Made by a program: the position numbers and the translations under genes
Shown here: piece by piece, positions 50,178 through 57,690 of the stretch
Position numbering within the stretch: the first letter of the stretch is position 1
How the letters are laid out: every line of letters begins with the position of its first letter
The notes under the pieces: model-generated
The model's input: only the letters and a program-made list of their open reading frames with translations
The model's database searches: none
What the model was told of the DNA's origin: nothing
Assembly (NCBI RefSeq): GCF_903970965.1
Contig: NZ_CAJCKW010000001.1
Location: 1 to 64,000, forward strand
Length of the DNA stretch: 64,000 nucleotides
Direction: 5' to 3'
Source of the DNA: Aureimonas sp. ME7
GTDB lineage: Bacteria > Pseudomonadota > Alphaproteobacteria > Rhizobiales > Rhizobiaceae

Positions 50178-50280
50178 ACACGGCTTCGACATCCCGTTCC
50201 CCTATCTGCCGGAGGGCCTCGATCGCTTCGTGGACAAGGCCGTGCTGAAGGCGCCGCGGCCGGACCGGCTGGGTCGCTCA
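50178..50280 (+). pseudogene. Possible fragment of a flavin-dependent (LLM-class) monooxygenase C-terminus
   Basis: The plus strand reads GFDIPFPYLPEGLDRFVDKA then VLKAPRPDRLG, without start or upstream domain. The pattern GF-x-hydrophobic-P-x(3)-P-x-x-L-x-x-F-V-D resembles the C-terminal end of LLM-class monooxygenases of the NtaA/SnaA/DszA group, some of which cleave organosulfur compounds. It overlaps the 3' tail of the MFS gene on the other strand. The match is short and from memory. Confidence 0.3.
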
Positions 50281-51722
50281 GACGGCGCGTTTGGGTGCGA
50301 AGCCCTTACCCGCCCGGACACCTCGATGCCGGCATCGCGGGACAAGATCAGAAATCGCAGCGAGGTGATGACGCCGATCCCGCCCATGATGGCGAGCGCC
50401 GTCTGGAAGTCCGGCAGTTGCGCCGCCGCGTCGGGCGCGCCGGTCTCGAGAAGGACGCTCAGCCGGATCATCAGGGCGGCCATCGCCACGGCGAGCAGCA
50501 CGGAAAGCTGCTGTGTCATGGAGGAGAAGGTCGTCGCGGCGCCACGCATCGTCGGCTCGATGTCGGCGAAGGTGATCGTGTTGAGCGCGGTGAACTGCAT
50601 GGAGCGCGTGAGCCCGGCGACGAACAGGAGGGCGAGAAGGAGCGGGCGCGGCGTCGATGGATCGACCAGCGCGAAGCTTGCCACCGCCAGCGAGGCGACG
50701 ACGCCGTTGGCGACGAGGAGCGTGCGGAAGCCGAGCCGGCGAAGCGTGCGCGTGGTGGCGGCCTTCATCGCGAGGTTGCCGAGGAAGTAGACCAGCATGA
50801 GCGATCCCGTCTCGACCGCGCCGAGGCCCATGCCGACCTGGAACAGCAGCGGAAGCAGGAAGGGGGTCGAGTTGATGACCATGCGCGCCATCGTCCCGGT
50901 CGAGAGCGAGGCGAGCGCGAAGGTCTGGGCCGAAAGGACGCGCAGGTCCACGAGCGGGTGAGGCGCGCGGCGCAGGTGGCGCACCCCGAACCCGCCAAGG
51001 CCAAGACCGGCGGCGACGAGGCAGGCGGCCGGCCAGCCCCCGTCCTGCGACAGCATTTCGAGCCCGACAAGCACTAGGGCCAATGCGCCGGCCGTGAGGA
51101 GGAAGCCCGGCCCGTCGAAGGGGCGCGGCGCCTCGCGCTCGCCGGCGGGAAGGAACAGGAGCGTGAGCGCCACGCCGATCGCGCCGATCGGCAGGTTCAG
51201 GAGGAAGTTCCAGCGCCAGCCGGCATGCGTCGTGATCCAGCCGCCGAGAATGGGGCCGGCCACCGGGGCGATCAGCGCGGGCCAGGTGATCAGCGCGATC
51301 GCATGGACGAGCTCGGACTTCGGGGTGTTGCGCAGCACGATCTGGCGGCCGACCGGGGTCATCAAGGCGCCGCCGATCCCTTGCGCGACGCGGGCGAGAA
51401 CGAAGCTCCAAAGGCCGTCGACCCAGGCGCAGGCCAGCGAGGAAAGGGTGAAAAGGACGATGGCGCCGAGAAAGACGTTGCGTGCGCCAAGCCGGTCGGC
51501 GAGCCAGCCGGCAGGCGGAATGCACACTGCCATGGCGAGAAGATAGGCGGTGAAGCCGACGTTGAGGCTGACGACGTCGGTTTGGAAGTCGGCCGCCATG
51601 GCGGGCAGCGAGGTCGCGATGATCGTGCCGTCGAGCGCCTGCATGAAGAAGGACACCGCCACGATGCCGGCCATGAGCCTGGGGCGGGGAAGGGCGGGGG
51701 CGCCCGGTGCTGTGACGGTCAT
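50202..51722 (-). CDS. MFS transporter of the DHA2 (EmrB/QacA) drug exporter family
   Basis: This transporter of about 506 residues has the DHA2 layout of 14 helices. FFMQALDGTIIATSLPAMAA (helix 1), AGWLADRLGARNVFLGAIVL (motif A) and APVAGPILGGWITTHAGWRW (motif C) are typical. It exports drugs or metabolites using the proton gradient. The C-terminal about 35 residues (RASHPNAPSERPSRSGRGAF and beyond) are hydrophilic and lie opposite a possible gene fragment, so the original stop may have been lost. The ATG at 51722 is preferred to 51743. It is 90 bases downstream of the SsuA-like gene, on the same strand. Confidence 0.9.
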   Translation of the reverse strand: MTVTAPGAPALPRPRLMAGIVAVSFFMQALDGTIIATSLPAMAADFQTDVVSLNVGFTAYLLAMAVCIPPAGWLADRLGARNVFLGAIVLFTLSSLACAWVDGLWSFVLARVAQGIGGALMTPVGRQIVLRNTPKSELVHAIALITWPALIAPVAGPILGGWITTHAGWRWNFLLNLPIGAIGVALTLLFLPAGEREAPRPFDGPGFLLTAGALALVLVGLEMLSQDGGWPAACLVAAGLGLGGFGVRHLRRAPHPLVDLRVLSAQTFALASLSTGTMARMVINSTPFLLPLLFQVGMGLGAVETGSLMLVYFLGNLAMKAATTRTLRRLGFRTLLVANGVVASLAVASFALVDPSTPRPLLLALLFVAGLTRSMQFTALNTITFADIEPTMRGAATTFSSMTQQLSVLLAVAMAALMIRLSVLLETGAPDAAAQLPDFQTALAIMGGIGVITSLRFLILSRDAGIEVSGRVRASHPNAPSERPSRSGRGAFSTALSTKRSRPSGR

Positions 51723-51812
51723 GAAATGCCGAACCCATATCATGCGAAGACGGGGGATCGGGGCGCTGACGCCCCGATCCCCCTTAGGGATAGCGCAGTT
51801 GTTGATGAACCG

Positions 51813-52841
51813 TCAGTTGCTCGCGGCCACTTGCGCGGCGGCGGCCTCGTAGAAGCTGCGATCGACCCAGGTATCGTAATCGACCGTGCCCTTCAGGAGA
51901 CCGGCCTCCGCCATGAAGCGCTCCTCGCCCTTCAGCGCCTCGATGGCCTGCGGCGTGATGTTCGGGTCCTGGTAGAACTTGCTTCCGGCGTAGGTGGCGC
52001 GGACCGCGTTCTCGCTGTTGCCGGTCTCCTTGACGAAGATCGCGATCGTCTCGTCCGGATGCGCGTCGGCCCAGCGGGCGGTCTCGATATCCACCTTCAG
52101 AAGGCGTTCGACGATCTCGGGATAGGTGCGGGCGAAGTCGCCGTTGACGCTGATGAGGTGCGGCACCGCCCATTCGGGTTTGCCGGATACACCGGCGTCG
52201 AAGAGAACGCGCGCCTGACCTGCGTCCACCAGCTTCTGGGCCGGCCCGGTGCTCTCGACGATCGCGTCCACATCACCGCGCGCGAGCGCGGGACCCGAAT
52301 TCTCGATGCCGATATTCAGGCTCTCGACGTCGTTGATCGACGCGCCTTCGGCTTCGAGCGCCTTGGCGAAGGTCGAGTGGCGCACGGTGCCGGACAGGTA
52401 GGCCACGCGCTTGCCCTTGAGATCGGCGAGCGTCTTGATCGGCGAGTCCGGCTTCACCACGACCAAAGTCTCGTTGGAGGGAACCCAGCTGGACAGGCCG
52501 ACGAGCTTCACGTCGGCACCGCTCGCGCCGAGGCGCAGCGACGGATTGTTGCCGATATAGGTGACGTCGATCGCGCCCGAGCCGAGCGCCACGGACGCCG
52601 CCGAGCCGCCGTCGAAGGTGGTGAGCTCGATCTTGATGCCGTCGGGTCCGAACTCCTTTTCCAGAAGCTTCTGGTTGCGGAACAGGACGAACTTGAGGTG
52701 GCCGGGCGCCGTCGAGCCGATGCGGATGACGTCGGGCTTGGCCGGCTGCGCCAGCGCGGGGGTGCCGGCGACGACGCCCAGCGCAAGGGAAAGAGCTGCG
52801 AGCCGGAGGATCGCACGGCGGGGCAGGGAGGCGAGGGGCAT
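51813..52841 (-). CDS. SsuA/TauA-type ABC transporter substrate-binding protein
   Basis: This 342-residue periplasmic protein has a twin-Arg-like/Sec signal (MPLASLPRRAILRLAALSLA, cut after ALA before QPAKPD). The body follows the sulfonate-binding SsuA/NMT1 fold: IRIGSTAPGHLKFVLFRNQK, IDVTYIGNNPSLRLGASGAD, LADLKGKRVAYLSGTVRHS and GDVDAIVESTGPAQKLVDAG. The solute is probably an organosulfonate or another small organic anion. It is the last gene of a six-gene operon. AAGGA lies 8 bases before the ATG. Confidence 0.9.
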   Translation of the reverse strand: MPLASLPRRAILRLAALSLALGVVAGTPALAQPAKPDVIRIGSTAPGHLKFVLFRNQKLLEKEFGPDGIKIELTTFDGGSAASVALGSGAIDVTYIGNNPSLRLGASGADVKLVGLSSWVPSNETLVVVKPDSPIKTLADLKGKRVAYLSGTVRHSTFAKALEAEGASINDVESLNIGIENSGPALARGDVDAIVESTGPAQKLVDAGQARVLFDAGVSGKPEWAVPHLISVNGDFARTYPEIVERLLKVDIETARWADAHPDETIAIFVKETGNSENAVRATYAGSKFYQDPNITPQAIEALKGEERFMAEAGLLKGTVDYDTWVDRSFYEAAAAQVAASN

Positions 52842-52936
52842 GGAGGATGTCCTTGTTGGGAAGCGCGGCGGGTCGTTTCGTCCAGGACTTGCGGCTGGAA
52901 CGGTCATGCTGGGGATGGTTGGGGGCGGGGGCGCTG

Positions 52937-53791
52937 TCAGGCCGGGCCGGCGCCTTCGCTGGCCTTCCAGCGGGTGGCGCGCGCTTCGAGGGCAACGAGG
53001 AGATAGTTCAGGACGAGACCGGTCGCCGTGAGCGTCAGGATGCCGGCATACATCCGGTCGGTCTCCAGCATCAGCGAGGAGTGCTGGATCAGGAAGCCGA
53101 TGCCGGACTGGGCGGCCAGCATCTCGGCCGCGATCACCGAGAAGAGCGAGGTTTTCACGCCGAGACGCGCGCCGGCGACGATCGAGGGGACGGCCGAAGG
53201 CAGGATCACCTTCTTGAACAGGTCCCAATCCGACGTGCCCATGGAGCGCGCGGCCTTGAGGAGCAGCGGATCCACCGACTTCACGCCGACGATCGTGTTG
53301 ACGAGGAGGAAGAAGACGGCCGCATAGAAGGTAATCGCGATCTTCGACGCCTCGCCGATGCCCAGCACCAGGATGAAGACGGGCATCAGGGCGAACTGCG
53401 AGGTGTTGCGCAGCGTCTGGACGAGGAAGTCGCTCATCCGCTCGAACAGGGTGTAGCGGCCCATCGCGAGGCCGAGCGGCACGGCCACCACGACGGCCAG
53501 AAGAAAGCCGAGCGCCGCGCGCTGGAGGCTGATGCCGATATGCTCGGCGATCGTGCCGCTTGCGATCATCTCCCAGAGCGCGGCCAGGACTTGGCTGAGC
53601 GGCGGAAAGAACAGGGCGTTGATCCAGCCGAGGCGCGGTGCGGCTTCCCAGAGAACGGCGAAGGCGAGGAGCGCGGGAAGGCCGAGGCCGAGGCTGGTCG
53701 CTGCGCGCCGCAGTCGCGAGGTGACGGGCGCGAAGCGCAGCCGCGTGCCGACGAAGGGGGCGAAGACGGGCTTGGGCGAAACGAGGGACAT
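52937..53791 (-). CDS. SsuC/TauC-type ABC transporter permease
   Basis: This 284-residue inner membrane protein has six helices and the EAA loop AARSMGTSDWDLFKKVILPS. LPALLAFAVLWEAAPRLGWI and QVLAALWEMIASGTIAEHIG match the sulfonate/nitrate/taurine permease family. It pairs with the ATPase at 53805 (13-base gap) and the binding protein at 51813. Confidence 0.93.
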   Translation of the reverse strand: MSLVSPKPVFAPFVGTRLRFAPVTSRLRRAATSLGLGLPALLAFAVLWEAAPRLGWINALFFPPLSQVLAALWEMIASGTIAEHIGISLQRAALGFLLAVVVAVPLGLAMGRYTLFERMSDFLVQTLRNTSQFALMPVFILVLGIGEASKIAITFYAAVFFLLVNTIVGVKSVDPLLLKAARSMGTSDWDLFKKVILPSAVPSIVAGARLGVKTSLFSVIAAEMLAAQSGIGFLIQHSSLMLETDRMYAGILTLTATGLVLNYLLVALEARATRWKASEGAGPA

Positions 53792-53804
53792 GGGCTCGGT
53801 CCTT

Positions 53805-54641
53805 TCAATGCGCGAGCCGCGCGGCGAGGGACCAATCCCCTTGCGCCTTGCGCACCTCGTCGCGCAGCGCCTCCCAGACGCGGGCGCGGTAGCGGTTGAA
53901 GTCGTCGCCGTTGCGCAGGTCGATGTCGCGCGGGCGCGGCAGGTCGATGTCGATGATCTCCTTCACGCGCGCGGGCCGGGCGGTCATCACGACGATCCGG
54001 TCGGCCAGAAAGATCGCCTCGTCGATGGAATGGGTGACGAAGACGACCGTCGTCTTGATCGTCTCCCAGATGCGCAGGAGCTCGGACTGGAGGATGTCGC
54101 GCGTCTGGGCGTCGAGGGCGGCGAAGGGCTCGTCCATCAGGAGCACTTCCGGATCGTTGGCGAGCGCGCGCGCGATCGCCACGCGCTGCTGCATGCCGCC
54201 CGAAAGCTGCGCGGGATAGCGGTCCTCGAAGCCCCCCAAGCCGAAGAGATCGAGCAGTTCTCGCGCCCGTTCGCGCCTTTCCCGCTTGCCGACCCCGCGC
54301 ACCTCCATCGCGTATTCGATGTTTTCCAGGGCCGTGCGCCAGGGAAAGAGCGCATATTGCTGGAAGACGTAAGCCGTCCCCGCGTGGGGGCGCGTCACGG
54401 GCTTGCCGTCGATCCGGGCGACGCCCGACGAGGCTTCCGTCAGCCCGGCGATGACGTCGAGCAGCACCGACTTGCCGCTGCCCGAAGGGCCGACCAGCGT
54501 GATGAACTCGCCCTTGCGAATGGCGAGGTCGACACCGCCGAGGACATCGACGCGGTCGCTTCGCCGCCCGTCCACGGTGACGCTCTGGCCGGGCTTGAGC
54601 TGGAATGTCTTGCGCAGGTCGCTGACGTCGATGCGGTCCAT
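53805..54641 (-). CDS. SsuB/TauB-type ABC transporter ATP-binding protein
   Basis: This 278-residue ATPase has Walker A GPSGSGKS, signature LSGGMQQRVAIARALANDPE, Walker B VLLMDEPFAALD and H-loop VFVTHSIDEAIFLADRIVVM. TAYVFQQYALFPWRTALENI (Q-loop) is typical of the nitrate/sulfonate/taurine importers. It stands 21 bases after the ferredoxin gene, in the same operon. Confidence 0.94.
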   Translation of the reverse strand: MDRIDVSDLRKTFQLKPGQSVTVDGRRSDRVDVLGGVDLAIRKGEFITLVGPSGSGKSVLLDVIAGLTEASSGVARIDGKPVTRPHAGTAYVFQQYALFPWRTALENIEYAMEVRGVGKRERRERARELLDLFGLGGFEDRYPAQLSGGMQQRVAIARALANDPEVLLMDEPFAALDAQTRDILQSELLRIWETIKTTVVFVTHSIDEAIFLADRIVVMTARPARVKEIIDIDLPRPRDIDLRNGDDFNRYRARVWEALRDEVRKAQGDWSLAARLAH

Positions 54642-54662
54642 GGATGGGTTCCCGGGATGAGT

Positions 54663-54992
54663 TCAGTTCTGCGCCGCGCGCAGGAGATGGGTGGGATCGC
54701 GGTCAGTGCCGCCGGCGCGTCCCCGGCTCCAGCCCAGCGCCCGGGCATAGGCGCCGAACAGGCCGCGCCGTTCGACCTCGGCTTCGGTCATGCCCGTGGG
54801 CCCGTTCGCCTGCTCGGCGACGTAGAGCGCGTCGGTCGGGCAGTAGATCTCGCAGAGGTAGCAAGTCTGGCAGTCGTCCTGCCGGGCGATGATCGGCAGC
54901 CCGGTCGCGTCTCGGTCGAAGACGAAGGCGGGGCATATCCGTTCGCAGATGTCGCAGCGGATGCAGCGGTCCCCGGACACGACCTCGATCAC
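54663..54992 (-). CDS. Two-cluster 4Fe-4S ferredoxin, AprB-like
   Basis: This 109-residue protein has two C-x2-C-x2-C-x3-CP sites: Cys10, 13, 16, 20 (CIRCDICERICP) and Cys41, 44, 47, 51 (CQTCYLCEIYCP). Such proteins shuttle single electrons. The C-terminal about 55 residues (TEAEVERRGLFGAYARALGW ... DPTHLLRAAQN) form a tail that may dock to the flavoprotein, as AprB does to AprA. It starts at GTG 54992, overlapping the flavoprotein stop (GTGA), so the two are made together. It is much like the small partner of APS-reductase-type complexes, but sulfate activation genes are absent. Confidence 0.88.
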   Translation of the reverse strand: MIEVVSGDRCIRCDICERICPAFVFDRDATGLPIIARQDDCQTCYLCEIYCPTDALYVAEQANGPTGMTEAEVERRGLFGAYARALGWSRGRAGGTDRDPTHLLRAAQN

Positions 54993-56623
54993 GACGCGGC
55001 TCCTTCCACACGGGCCTCGGCTTCCCCATCCCAGTCCGCCCGGACTTGGCCCAAGCCGCCCACTGTGATGCGCTGGGCCATGCCGGCGTCGGTTTCCGGG
55101 AAATCGCTGCGGCGATGGGCGCCGCGGCTTTCCGTGCGCAGCTGCGCGGCGGCAAGGGTCCAGCGCGTCACCGCCGTGACGGCGGCGACCTCGCGGGCAC
55201 GCAGACGCCCGATGCCTTGTGCCTGCAAGTGCCGGCTGACCTCCGTCCAGACGGCTTCCACCGCGCGTCGTCCCTCGGCGAGGGTGCCGGCGTGACGGCG
55301 ATAGTTCCGGCCGAGCGGCGCGATCCGGGCGCGCACTTCGGCCACGGCGCGGTCGAGATCGACGGCGCGCGCCTCGGCCGAGGGCCGCAGACCGGCGCAC
55401 CCGAGCGGTGCCACGCGGCGCTCGGCCTGCGCGGCCGCACGCCGGGCGGAAAGGCTGGCGCCCCGCCCCGCCCACCAGCCGCTGGCCATCGCCCAGGAGG
55501 CGTTGACCGCCCCGCCGCCGGAGACGCCGCCGGTCACGTTCTCTCGGCTGGCCGCGTCGCCGGCCGCGAAAAGGCCGGGAATGCCGGTCGAGCAATCGGC
55601 CGATGCGATGCGGATGCCGCCGGTTCCGCGCACCGTGCCCTCGAACTTCAGCTCCACCGGGAACAGGTCGCGGAAGGGATCGAGCCCCATGCGCTCGTAC
55701 GGCGTGAAGCAGTTGGGCTGGCCCCGGCGCAGCGCGTCCTCGATCGCGGGATCGGCGAGGTCGAGCCGCGCGAGGACGTCGCCTTCCCCCAAGGCCTCGG
55801 CGATCAGCCGTTCGGCGGCGCCGATGCCGTTGGTGACGGGTTCGCCGCCCGGCCCCCGGAGCGGCGTGCCGTCCGGCCGGTAGAAACTCGCCCAGCGGAA
55901 GGGCAGGCCCTTGTTCAGCGAAGAGCCGCGCGGGGCCAGCGTGTACTTGCCGGTGAACTCAAGCCCCGAAAGGCTCGCGCCCGCTTCCGCCGCGAACAGG
56001 TGTCCGTCGCCGGTGAGGCCCGTGCCGCCGAGGATGCGCTCGAAATAGGCGCAGCCGCCGCTCGCCAGGACCACCGCACCGGCACGAATCTCGAAGCTCG
56101 CGCCCGATCGCCGCGACATGCCGTTCGCACCCGCCACCGCATGGCCGTCGCCTAGCAATTCCAGGATCGGGTGGTGATCGAGGATGCGCACGCCGCGCTT
56201 GGCGACCTGTGCGCGCATGAAGCGCATGTAGTCGGGGCCGCGCAAATTGGCGACGTAGAGGTTTCCCCCCTCGTCGCTCGGAAACGGATAGCCCCATTCG
56301 CGAAGGCGCGTCAGGTTCTCGTAGCTCTGGTCGACGCAGCGCAACATCCAGCGGCGGTCGCCGAGCCCGGCCGTTCGCTTCCAGCGCGCTTCCACGGCGG
56401 CCTGTCGCCCGTCCCCGGGCGGCACGCACCATGTGCCGGTGTTGGAGGGCGCGGTCGCGCCGCTGGTGCCGAAATAGCCCTTGTCCGCCAAGACGACGCT
56501 CGCGCCGGCCTCGGCCGCCGAAAGGGCGGCCCAGGCCGCGGCCGGACCGCCGCCCACGACGAGCACGTCGCAGGCGAGGCGCTCGCCTTCGGGAAGCGAT
56601 CGGTCCTTGGCGGTGGAGGCCAT
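54989..56623 (-). CDS. AprA/fumarate-reductase-like FAD flavoprotein
   Basis: This 544-residue flavoprotein belongs to the succinate dehydrogenase/fumarate reductase/AprA family. The FAD fold is CDVLVVGGGPAAAWAALSAA (residues about 18-37) with DKGYFGTSGATAPSNTG. VVLASGGCAYFERILGGTGL and GIPGLFAAGDAASRENVTGG are typical. The fumarate-type catalytic HPT motif is not evident: the sector reads GLEFTGKYTLAP. It lies between a thiol-peroxidase-like gene and the ferredoxin, with which it shares a GTGA overlap. It probably oxidises or reduces a sulfur substrate brought in by the SsuABC-type importer; the substrate is unknown. Confidence 0.88.
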   Translation of the reverse strand: MASTAKDRSLPEGERLACDVLVVGGGPAAAWAALSAAEAGASVVLADKGYFGTSGATAPSNTGTWCVPPGDGRQAAVEARWKRTAGLGDRRWMLRCVDQSYENLTRLREWGYPFPSDEGGNLYVANLRGPDYMRFMRAQVAKRGVRILDHHPILELLGDGHAVAGANGMSRRSGASFEIRAGAVVLASGGCAYFERILGGTGLTGDGHLFAAEAGASLSGLEFTGKYTLAPRGSSLNKGLPFRWASFYRPDGTPLRGPGGEPVTNGIGAAERLIAEALGEGDVLARLDLADPAIEDALRRGQPNCFTPYERMGLDPFRDLFPVELKFEGTVRGTGGIRIASADCSTGIPGLFAAGDAASRENVTGGVSGGGAVNASWAMASGWWAGRGASLSARRAAAQAERRVAPLGCAGLRPSAEARAVDLDRAVAEVRARIAPLGRNYRRHAGTLAEGRRAVEAVWTEVSRHLQAQGIGRLRAREVAAVTAVTRWTLAAAQLRTESRGAHRRSDFPETDAGMAQRITVGGLGQVRADWDGEAEARVEGAAS

Positions 56624-56649
56624 CCGGCGCGCCCTCGATCCGGCTTCGC

Positions 56650-57237
56650 TCAGGCGGCGGCCGGGACGACGCCCGGTTCGTTGCCTGCCGTCCACTTGAT
56701 GTTGCAGCCGATCGAGGGCGTCTGCGCCGCACCGGGTGCCTGTCCGGCGAGGACCGCGTCCACGGCCGCACGCAGGTCCGCGCCGGTCACCGGCTTGCCG
56801 TTTCCGGGGCGCGCGTCGTCGAACTGGCCGTGATAGCGGAGCCGGCGCTCGGCGTCGAAAAGGAAGAAGTCCGGCGTGCAGGCGGCGTCGTAGGCCTTGG
56901 CCACCTCCTGCGAGGCGTCCTTCAGATAGGGGAAGTCGTAGCCCTGCTCGCGCACCTCCGCCTCGATCCGCTCCAGCGTTTCCTCGGGATGGGCCGCAGC
57001 GTCGTTGGAGTTGATGGCGATCACGGCCAAGCCCTTGGCGGCATAGTCGCGCGCGAAGGCCGCGAGTTCTTCGCGCAGGAGCACCACGAACGGACAGCGG
57101 TTCGAGATGAAGGCGACGAGGAGCGCCGGTCGATCGGCGAAGTCGGAGAGCGCGACCTCGTGCCCGCCGGGGCCCGGCAGCGAGAAACCCGGAGCCTTGG
57201 TGCCGAGGGCGACGGTGTTGGATTGGGTCTTGGGCAT
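56650..57237 (-). CDS. Thioredoxin-fold protein, peroxiredoxin/TlpA-like
   Basis: This 195-residue protein has the AhpC/TSA fold: GTKAPGFSLPGPGGHEVALS then LVAFISNRCPFVVLLREELA with one active cysteine, Cys48, where a CxxC would be expected (SNRCPFV). IAINSNDAAAHPEETLERIE and TPDFFLFDAERRLRYHGQFD match the cytosolic thioredoxin-like family with a single Cys. It lacks a signal peptide. It is the first gene of the six-gene operon, 26 bases before the flavoprotein gene. It may handle thiol or peroxide by-products. Confidence 0.85.
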   Translation of the reverse strand: MPKTQSNTVALGTKAPGFSLPGPGGHEVALSDFADRPALLVAFISNRCPFVVLLREELAAFARDYAAKGLAVIAINSNDAAAHPEETLERIEAEVREQGYDFPYLKDASQEVAKAYDAACTPDFFLFDAERRLRYHGQFDDARPGNGKPVTGADLRAAVDAVLAGQAPGAAQTPSIGCNIKWTAGNEPGVVPAAA

Positions 57238-57269: not shown

Positions 57270-57315
57270 GGAGCATTCAGTATACTATATTGGTAGACAA
57301 AAAATTCCTCGGACG
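57270..57315 (-). promoter_or_regulatory. AT-rich promoter/operator of the sulfur operon
   Basis: A sharp AT-rich island (cagtatactatattggtaga) in very GC-rich DNA lies 33-78 bases before the operon's first ATG. It contains the palindrome AGTATACT at 57279-57286, with a TATACT that could be a -10 box, and TTGTCT nearby at 57292-57299. No good -35 box is spaced 17 bases away, so activation by a regulator is likely. Confidence 0.5.
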
Positions 57316-57461: not shown

Positions 57462-57690
57462 TCAGACGGTTGCCCGGTCGAAGAAGGCGTAGCCGAAGCG
57501 CACGCGCTGCGCGATGGGCATCTGGCGCTCTGCGGTGCCGCGCGCGGTATGGATGACGGTCGTGTTGCCGGACGCGGTGGCGCCGCTCGTGCCGACGTAA
57601 CCCTTCTGCATCAGCATCACGGAGGCTCCCGCCTCCAGCGCCGTCATGGCGACCCAGGACCCGGCCGGACCACGCCGAGGCAGCGGCATG
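57462..57690 (-). pseudogene. Remnant of a second AprA-like flavoprotein
   Basis: About 75 residues show the FAD-fold region GPAGSWVAMTALEAGASVML then MQKGYVGTSGATASGNTTVI, which aligns with GPAAAWAALSAAEAGASVVL and ADKGYFGTSGATAPSNTGTW of the intact flavoprotein at 54989. The leading VVGGG strand is replaced by LPRR and the frame stops after RFGYAFFDRATV, so only a small N-terminal piece remains. It is nearer to another family member than to the intact copy, so it is not a simple recent duplicate. Confidence 0.75.

Follow-up and report, generated by a model that had tools for sequence, protein, structure and literature searches.

Oxygen-dependent enzymes are the usual explanation of how aerobic bacteria scavenge sulfur. 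In the literature searched, as far as it was accessible, the nearest described case to the system presented here is the isethionate locus of Rhodobacter capsulatus, in which, according to the available part of the report, SsuABC, the luciferase-like monooxygenase (LLM)-type ntaA, and a gene for a flavin adenine dinucleotide (FAD)-dependent oxidoreductase followed by a hypothetical gene share one sulfonate-induced locus with the isethionate reductase IsrBHDK (PMC11423573). The same part of that report gives an upregulation of the FAD oxidoreductase gene of about 4000-fold on isethionate (PMC11423573). Here, we describe a six-gene operon of Aureimonas sp. ME7 (genome of 4.38 Mb in 60 contigs), located in the first 64,000 nucleotides of contig NZ_CAJCKW010000001.1 (the window), which combines an FAD-binding flavoprotein and a ferredoxin with an importer of the ATP-binding cassette (ABC) type. 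The closest named relatives of the source genome are Aureimonas species, with flavoprotein identities of 83-89%. We propose, with a probability of roughly 55%, that the operon is a sulfur-scavenging module, the flavoprotein-ferredoxin enzyme of which acts directly, and probably reductively, on an imported organosulfur compound. Import, co-regulation with known sulfur genes through a predicted site and the conservation of the genes as a set were derived by computation, and we infer the substrate, the direction of the reaction and the partner.

A check of coordinates and open reading frames confirmed all six genes on the minus strand, with intergenic gaps, from the first gene on, of 26, -4, 21, 13 and 95 bases, as an earlier note on this DNA had described. 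The first gene encodes a peroxiredoxin/thioredoxin-fold protein of 195 amino acids (56650-57237; AhpC-TSA/Redoxin in Pfam). The earlier note had called it a single-cysteine protein: one cysteine does occupy the customary active-site position, which lacks a CxxC pair, but the protein has three cysteines in total (positions 48, 120 and 178). PDB entry 3u5r, labelled as an uncharacterized protein and presumably carrying the tag SMc02350, is its Sinorhizobium meliloti orthologue (194 of 195 residues). The next genes encode the flavoprotein of 544 amino acids (54989-56623; FAD_binding_2 and Succ_DH_flav_C), which has the fold of the complex-II/AprA superfamily and invariant residues of its own, and a ferredoxin of 109 amino acids with two 4Fe-4S motifs (54663-54992), whose GTG start overlaps the flavoprotein stop by four bases. 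They are followed by an ABC transporter ATPase (53805-54641; ABC_tran), a permease (52937-53791; BPD_transp_1) and an SsuA-family substrate-binding protein (51813-52841; NMT1). NCBIfam statements on the window's proteins, here and below, rest on the 25 of 41 matches listed. The binding protein passes the SsuA_fam model TIGR01728 (310.4 bits against a cut-off of 163.5), but the ATPase and the permease reach no SsuB or SsuC cut-off among the matches listed, so that the designation “SsuABC-type” is supported for the binding protein and not for its partners. According to Pfam and NCBIfam, neither the six genes nor the gene of a major facilitator superfamily (MFS) transporter beyond the binding protein encode a monooxygenase dependent on reduced flavin mononucleotide (FMNH2) or a flavin reductase; ATP sulfurylase is likewise missing from the six, in line with the earlier description.

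The best evidence for a role in sulfur metabolism is provided by the region upstream of the first gene. An inverted repeat, TCTAY-N7-RTAGA, is shared by 24 non-redundant regions at this position, and in the window the predicted regulator site TCTAC-N7-GTATA (57281-57297, no strand assigned) lies 43 bp before the first gene, with one mismatch. The spacing of the repeat fits a LysR-type box. Across 40 such regions, the repeat is exact in 14 and carries one mismatch in 13 and two in another 13, compared to 0.1, 1.8 and 16.5% for the same classes in shuffled sequences; this count is partly circular, because the pattern was read from 24 of those regions, and a genome-wide search is the better and less circular test. 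Exact sites are rare, with 37 in 21 Aureimonas genomes (27 for the reversed pattern; none of the 37 in the window's own genome). Ten of these precede flavoprotein operons, at a distance of 26-52 bp from the first gene; six of the ten belong to clades other than the six-gene one, and together they cover 10 of the 14 flavoprotein genes found in the 21 genomes. Altogether, 26 of the 37 sites were examined (loci L022, L024, L026 and L082 included), and six of the 16 others adjoin sulfur-type genes (L188, L189, L190, L191, L194 and L195). Among them are a CysI-CysH operon (CysH 250.9 bits, cut-off 154), msuE-sfnG with a divergent metQ (220 against 212.5 and 600 against 383 bits) and an SsuA gene (208 against 163.5 bits). 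The other three are weaker: the SsuA/MetQ matches in L189 and L194 stay under the cut-off, and L190 was assigned to ABC genes by BLAST only.

A similar picture emerges in Mesorhizobium ciceri, which has nine exact sites compared to three for the reversed control. Four of the nine come with sulfur-type genes, i.e., tauA (535 against 304 bits), ssuA-ssuD (195 against 163.5 and 592 against 518 bits), an LLM gene (under the cut-off) and CysG (542 against 400 bits), and five have no sulfur gene. In the window's own genome, nine of 31 one-mismatch sites were examined, the window's site included, picked as AT-rich-looking or near LLM genes. Of the other eight, one lies some 290 bp ahead of an ssu operon that includes two LLM genes and SsuD, one before an ABC-LLM operon, one at a metQNI operon and one before a flavin-reductase-like gene (assigned by eye); four have no such gene downstream (two in L234, L238 and L239). 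Where the motif site fell inside the longest reading frame, as it did in some loci, a later start was adopted. It is the gene set as a whole, rather than any single site, which speaks for the predicted sulfur regulon, and TCTAY-N7-RTAGA thus appears to mark a predicted sulfur-starvation regulon that the operon shares with known sulfur genes. No riboswitch was detected: Rfam gave no match in seven related loci, and only a tRNA matched in the window.

The gene order itself is conserved beyond chance. A scan of genome contigs with the flavoprotein, with one genome per species, gave 79 loci, and the order thioredoxin-fold protein (prx), flavoprotein, ferredoxin, ATPase, permease and binding protein is kept in 35 of them; two of these, L088 and L090, have one gene broken up into two frames. 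Hence, the arrangement is not confined to one genome, as the earlier note had proposed to check. The 35 loci come from Aureimonas, Shinella, Brucella pituitosa, Mycoplana, Phyllobacterium, Mesorhizobium, Rhizobium, Prosthecomicrobium, Rubellimicrobium and further relatives, and S. meliloti Ak57 has the same order. In Brucella pituitosa (L028, 9589-9942), the first operon gene matches only partly and possibly represents a decayed or divergent copy. The six-gene extent given earlier stands as a core, but the conserved cluster can be larger: a DHA2-like MFS gene, which in the window occupies 50202-51743 on the minus strand, follows the binding protein as a seventh gene in 15 of the 35 loci (50-83% identity), and also in Shinella and S. 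meliloti records of the plasmid collection. In deeper relatives, the flavoprotein-ferredoxin pair is intact, and the order and type of the importer vary. The pair is spread over Proteobacteria, cyanobacteria, Actinomycetota and Bacillota, where importers of the SsuA/NMT1 type are its usual neighbours and other sulfur genes often accompany it. The ferredoxin directly follows the flavoprotein in 73 of 92 copies; of the 19 exceptions, six show a ferredoxin motif no more than 1.5 kb away, and many others are from Nostocales, several of which stand after a set of flavoprotein, ferredoxin and binding protein. The distribution is patchy (11 of 151 near genomes, the window's own included; 3 of 394 genomes of the Rhodobacterales family of Rubellimicrobium, with few candidates scored per genome), and a single Aureimonas genome can hold up to four flavoprotein copies.

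Flavoprotein matches (E up to 1e-30) were also obtained in 59 of 72,556 plasmid records, from Rhizobium, Azospirillum, Paracoccus, Nostoc, Pseudonocardia, Nocardia, Paenibacillus and other hosts. We opened 21 of the 59, of our own choosing, one of them without annotation and several with loci that closely duplicate one another. Another sulfur gene, besides the pair's own importer, lies within 8-9 kb in 15 of 19 annotated loci; in one of the 15 (L115), the sole marker is a lone sulfonate-binding protein gene. Neighbours outside the six-gene clade include LLM monooxygenases, SsuD, SfnB, TauD, MetNIQ, TauE/SafE and rhodanese, as well as cysD-cysN, serine acetyltransferase, arylsulfatase and transsulfuration genes. 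None of eight control stretches, taken from eight of these plasmids, contained a sulfur marker (one ThiS excluded), which corresponds to a Fisher p of 0.0002, or 0.008 if one case and the ThiS control are each counted in the opposite way; these figures are only indicative, because the list of markers was compiled after the plasmid loci had been seen and several loci are near copies. The S. meliloti record of the plasmid collection, opened later, has no sulfur marker nearby.

What kind of enzyme is the flavoprotein? Its predicted structure (mean predicted local distance difference test 88.7, predicted template modelling score 0.91) has the complex-II fold, with template modelling (TM) scores of 0.77 to Escherichia coli FrdA, 0.75 to the 3'-phosphoadenosine 5'-phosphosulfate (PAPS) reductase of Methanothermococcus and 0.74 to AprA. 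The top matches of the family profile are SdhA (E 6e-38) and FrdA (E 2e-35), and the PAPS reductase alpha subunit 8a8o_A is matched in one stretch (positions 16-509, E 3e-29). The window ferredoxin matches the 104-residue beta subunit 8a8o_C at positions 8-61, albeit weakly (E 5.5e-5) and behind other ferredoxin-like proteins. Since both subunits are matched, the two-gene build resembles that of the Methanothermococcus enzyme, a predicted likeness of gene content and similarity (FAD alpha subunit with a 2[4Fe-4S] beta subunit of about 105 amino acids). In a tree of 54 family members with seven AprA, six PRK08275-type proteins and one SdhA from the window's own genome, the 54 form one clade with support of 99/99 on a long branch (2.15). 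Nine residues are invariant in the family (W31, R137, D149, P152, F321, E328, R332, R360 and W377), none of which occurs at the same position in the references.

The residues compared are the active-site arginine, histidine and asparagine of AprA (after Archaeoglobus fulgidus AprA) and the two substrate histidines and the substrate arginine of SdhA. All three AprA residues are lost in 54 of 54 members: the arginine of ARFKDG falls in a gap, the histidine of TPHAF is replaced by S, A, G or N, and the asparagine is replaced as well (by W in 50), whereas the seven AprA references retain all three and pass TIGR02061. The description as AprAB-like, with which the earlier note had started, therefore does not hold beyond distant superfamily resemblance; membership in AprA was ruled out by these residues and by the cut-offs, as the best AprA model listed, NF005331, scores 47.7 bits against 557, and TIGR02061 is not among the 25 of 41 matches listed. 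The parallel label of fumarate-reductase-like fares no better: in all 54 members, the SdhA histidines of QFHPT and VHYNMGG are Tyr and Glu, and the arginine of GANRLG is replaced (G in 52, C in one and P in one), which, together with the cut-offs, excludes the SdhA/FrdA/NadB type. No NCBIfam model is passed by the flavoprotein among the matches listed. The PRK08275 family model NF006131 gives 68.4 bits against 587, and membership in the selenium-associated Sao system was rejected on account of SaoA, SaoP and SaoX, which remain below their NCBIfam cut-offs (257/360, 158/295 and 30.5/300 bits, respectively). Judged by the tested residues, the flavoprotein would work like neither AprA nor SdhA, though it is built like both.

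In the mechanism that we propose, sulfur limitation would switch on the operon via a regulator, perhaps of the LysR type, and the SsuA-type importer would bring in a small organosulfur compound, such as a sulfonate, sulfone or sulfoxide. The flavoprotein and the 2[4Fe-4S] ferredoxin would form one enzyme, similar to the alpha-beta pair of adenosine 5'-phosphosulfate (APS)/PAPS reductases, in which electrons might pass from a cellular reductant via the clusters to the FAD. Reduced FAD would then attack the substrate and free sulfite or a lower sulfur form, which could enter cysteine synthesis via CysI. The thioredoxin-fold protein may take care of a by-product (a thiol, a peroxide or sulfite); in loci with the MFS gene, the encoded transporter may export the leftover organic part. 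Paralogues, each with their own importer, might serve different substrates, and because many paralogues have such an importer, the predicted regulator site makes the substrates and relatives of the family testable. The genome encodes two proteins with a PAPS-reductase domain and 15 LLM proteins elsewhere, so the operon would add to the usual sulfur routes instead of replacing them; a replacement of CysH in particular is unlikely given the two PAPS-reductase-domain genes. Uptake and redox processing of an organosulfur compound, as the earlier note had suggested, is supported by the SsuA assignment, the conserved order and the promoter motif shared with known sulfur genes, and its interpretation is thus partly supported overall.

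The same scavenging module could work in the opposite direction, i.e., the flavoprotein might be oxidative, with a desaturation or dehydrogenation of the SdhA kind, the ferredoxin taking up the electrons and sulfite leaving by elimination. The fold and the C-terminal signature are those of succinate dehydrogenase and L-aspartate oxidase, a further SdhA arginine (SRDVV) is still Arg in 26 of the 54 family members, and the hosts are mostly aerobes. However, the two histidines and the GANRLG arginine of SdhA are gone throughout the family, and 2[4Fe-4S] ferredoxins are low-potential as a rule, which favours reduction. We regard oxidative cleavage as unlikely, though as the most serious competitor of the reductive module.

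A different role is suggested by data from S. meliloti, and several observations collected here weigh against the sulfur-scavenging module. SMc02344-SMc02346, which we identify by gene number and count as the importer of the S. meliloti orthologous operon, are reported to rank with the genes most strongly induced by nitrogen stress, and have been called a glycine-betaine/choline transporter (PMC8829014, PMC3596328). A six-gene operon, printed as “smc0235-smc02344” in the context of an smc02350 fusion in the available part of a further report (PMC5940162), is, again from gene number and count, taken to be the S. meliloti copy of the window operon. Of the three exact motif sites in the S. meliloti record, none adjoins a recognised sulfur gene, and the operon's own site there has two mismatches. 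No other sulfur marker is found nearby in 32 of the 35 six-gene loci (present only in L045, L047 and L052). Among the examined Aureimonas sites, four (L183, L185 and two in L186) lie by unnamed FAD-binding or peptide-transport genes only, and for another six no gene of interest was seen (two sites in L182, one each in L184, L193 and L196, and the second of L187). Many single motif sites must be due to chance, as the reversed controls indicate (27 compared to 37 in Aureimonas, and 69 compared to 31 one-mismatch sites in the window's own genome). In the available part of its report, moreover, the R. capsulatus “FAD-dependent oxidoreductase”, which is a candidate family member only, is dispensable for growth on isethionate (PMC11423573). 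No expression data for the operon genes under sulfur limitation were found in the literature searched.

The nitrogen-stress data raise the possibility that the operon takes up and degrades a nitrogen compound or osmolyte, with sulfur being incidental. Next to the Shinella copy lie glutamine-synthetase-type and other ABC genes, which would fit, and binding proteins of the NMT1 fold are not all for sulfonates. Against this stand the motif common to cysI-cysH, cysG, ssu, tau, sfnG and met genes, the sulfur genes that adjoin paralogues, and the region before the operon, where the best scores for a sigma-54/nitrogen promoter are no better than those of shuffled sequences. For the operon in general we consider such a role improbable; from the nitrogen-stress induction and the S. 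meliloti motif sites, a nitrogen role in the S. meliloti lineage, or a substrate with both nitrogen and sulfur, is possible.

It is quite improbable, too, that the pair merely supplies reductant to LLM monooxygenases coded elsewhere, in place of SsuE/MsuE. LLM or other monooxygenase genes do occur near the pair in several relatives, in two Sphingobium records with a four-base overlap with the flavoprotein gene, and the 15 LLM genes of the genome would offer clients. But the six-gene operon has no LLM gene, only 3 of the 35 six-gene loci were found to have LLM/SsuD-type markers nearby, the nearest relatives of solved structure have substrates of their own, and an MsuE gene over the cut-off belongs to the predicted regulon of a relative. 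We consider it highly improbable that the pair is a flavoprotein-type assimilatory reductase of APS or PAPS like that of Methanothermococcus: two-subunit build and fold are similar, as far as the available part of the report goes (PMC10322725), and cysD-cysN lie near one relative, but the tested AprA residues are lost, the genome already has its PAPS-reductase-domain genes, the operon lacks ATP sulfurylase, and such a function would hardly account for the importers or for several paralogues in one genome.

Further features surround the operon. Between the binding-protein and MFS genes, a GC-rich hairpin of 14 bp (51752-51783, no strand assigned) forms a terminator-like stem without a T run. 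Directly upstream of the operon, a remnant on the minus strand (57462-57689) corresponds to the N-terminus of a second flavoprotein from another family clade, with 72-78% identity to the other Aureimonas paralogue clade. Near the second Aureimonas paralogue, the motif also precedes genes for an FAD/NAD(P)-binding protein (assigned by eye) and a peptide-type binding protein (TIGR04028) in L186 (9278-12907), L185 and L183, and the genes behind these sites are further candidate sulfur genes. In Azospirillum brasilense, the neighbourhood of the pair includes a gene annotated as an encapsulin cargo cysteine desulfurase (L112, 17651-19425).

In the open-licence literature searched, as far as its texts were accessible, no description of such a flavoprotein-ferredoxin pair in organosulfur use was found, and the available parts of papers on Paraburkholderia phymatum, Rhodococcus, Gordonia, Pseudomonas aeruginosa, Xanthomonas citri and Acinetobacter baylyi mention no such enzyme; this agrees with the earlier remark that no named pathway fits the whole set. 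If the pair acts on organosulfur substrates, a large family that carries only generic labels in the annotated records examined here (“FAD-binding protein”, “ferredoxin family protein”) gains a role, and the label “glycine-betaine and choline transporter” of the presumed S. meliloti orthologous importer comes into question. As a tentative and less certain extension, a widespread, multi-paralogue class of iron-sulfur flavoenzymes might take sulfur from imported organosulfur compounds without oxygen chemistry, alongside FMNH2 monooxygenases, TauD-type dioxygenases and nitrogenase-like reductases.

Several known systems can be compared with the operon. With the Methanothermococcus thermolithotrophicus PAPS reductase (PDB 8a8o) and dissimilatory AprAB it shares an alpha subunit that binds FAD and belongs to the complex-II superfamily, a beta subunit of the 2[4Fe-4S] type and a predicted place in sulfur metabolism, but the window family lacks the tested AprA residues, has other invariant residues and forms a separate clade, and its operon is coupled to an ABC importer and has no sulfate activation genes. 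Succinate dehydrogenase, fumarate reductase and L-aspartate oxidase are alike in fold and C-terminal signature, whereas the window family has two substrate histidines and one arginine replaced and has a small dicluster ferredoxin as its partner where complex II has its iron-sulfur subunit. AprA-like flavoproteins of the PRK08275 family (NF006131) also occur with SsuA/TauC-like importer genes, but belong to a different clade and keep the AprA His and Asn positions. This pairing was found via seven AprA-like regions (L153-L159, from several Pseudomonadota), fetched for a comparison of AprA context, in which the flavoproteins stand with genes for an SsuA-like binding protein, a TauC/SsuC-like permease or a HEAT-like repeat protein; the one flavoprotein scanned, that of L158, is over the PRK08275/NF006131 cut-off, and the family is named fumarate reductase/succinate dehydrogenase. 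In R. capsulatus, the FAD oxidoreductase gene and its neighbour, rcc02232-rcc02233, may belong to the window family, judging from the available part of the report (PMC11423573). There, in contrast to what is proposed here, a nitrogenase-like enzyme does the work (PMC11423573, available part), and the one new locus listed from the 394 genomes of the Rubellimicrobium family has no recognised nitrogenase-like neighbours. Finally, the operon resembles SsuABC-SsuDE and TauABCD in its SsuA-family importer, its predicted shared regulator site and its presumed sulfur-starvation logic, but in the place of an FMNH2 monooxygenase, a dioxygenase or a flavin reductase it encodes an iron-sulfur flavoprotein.

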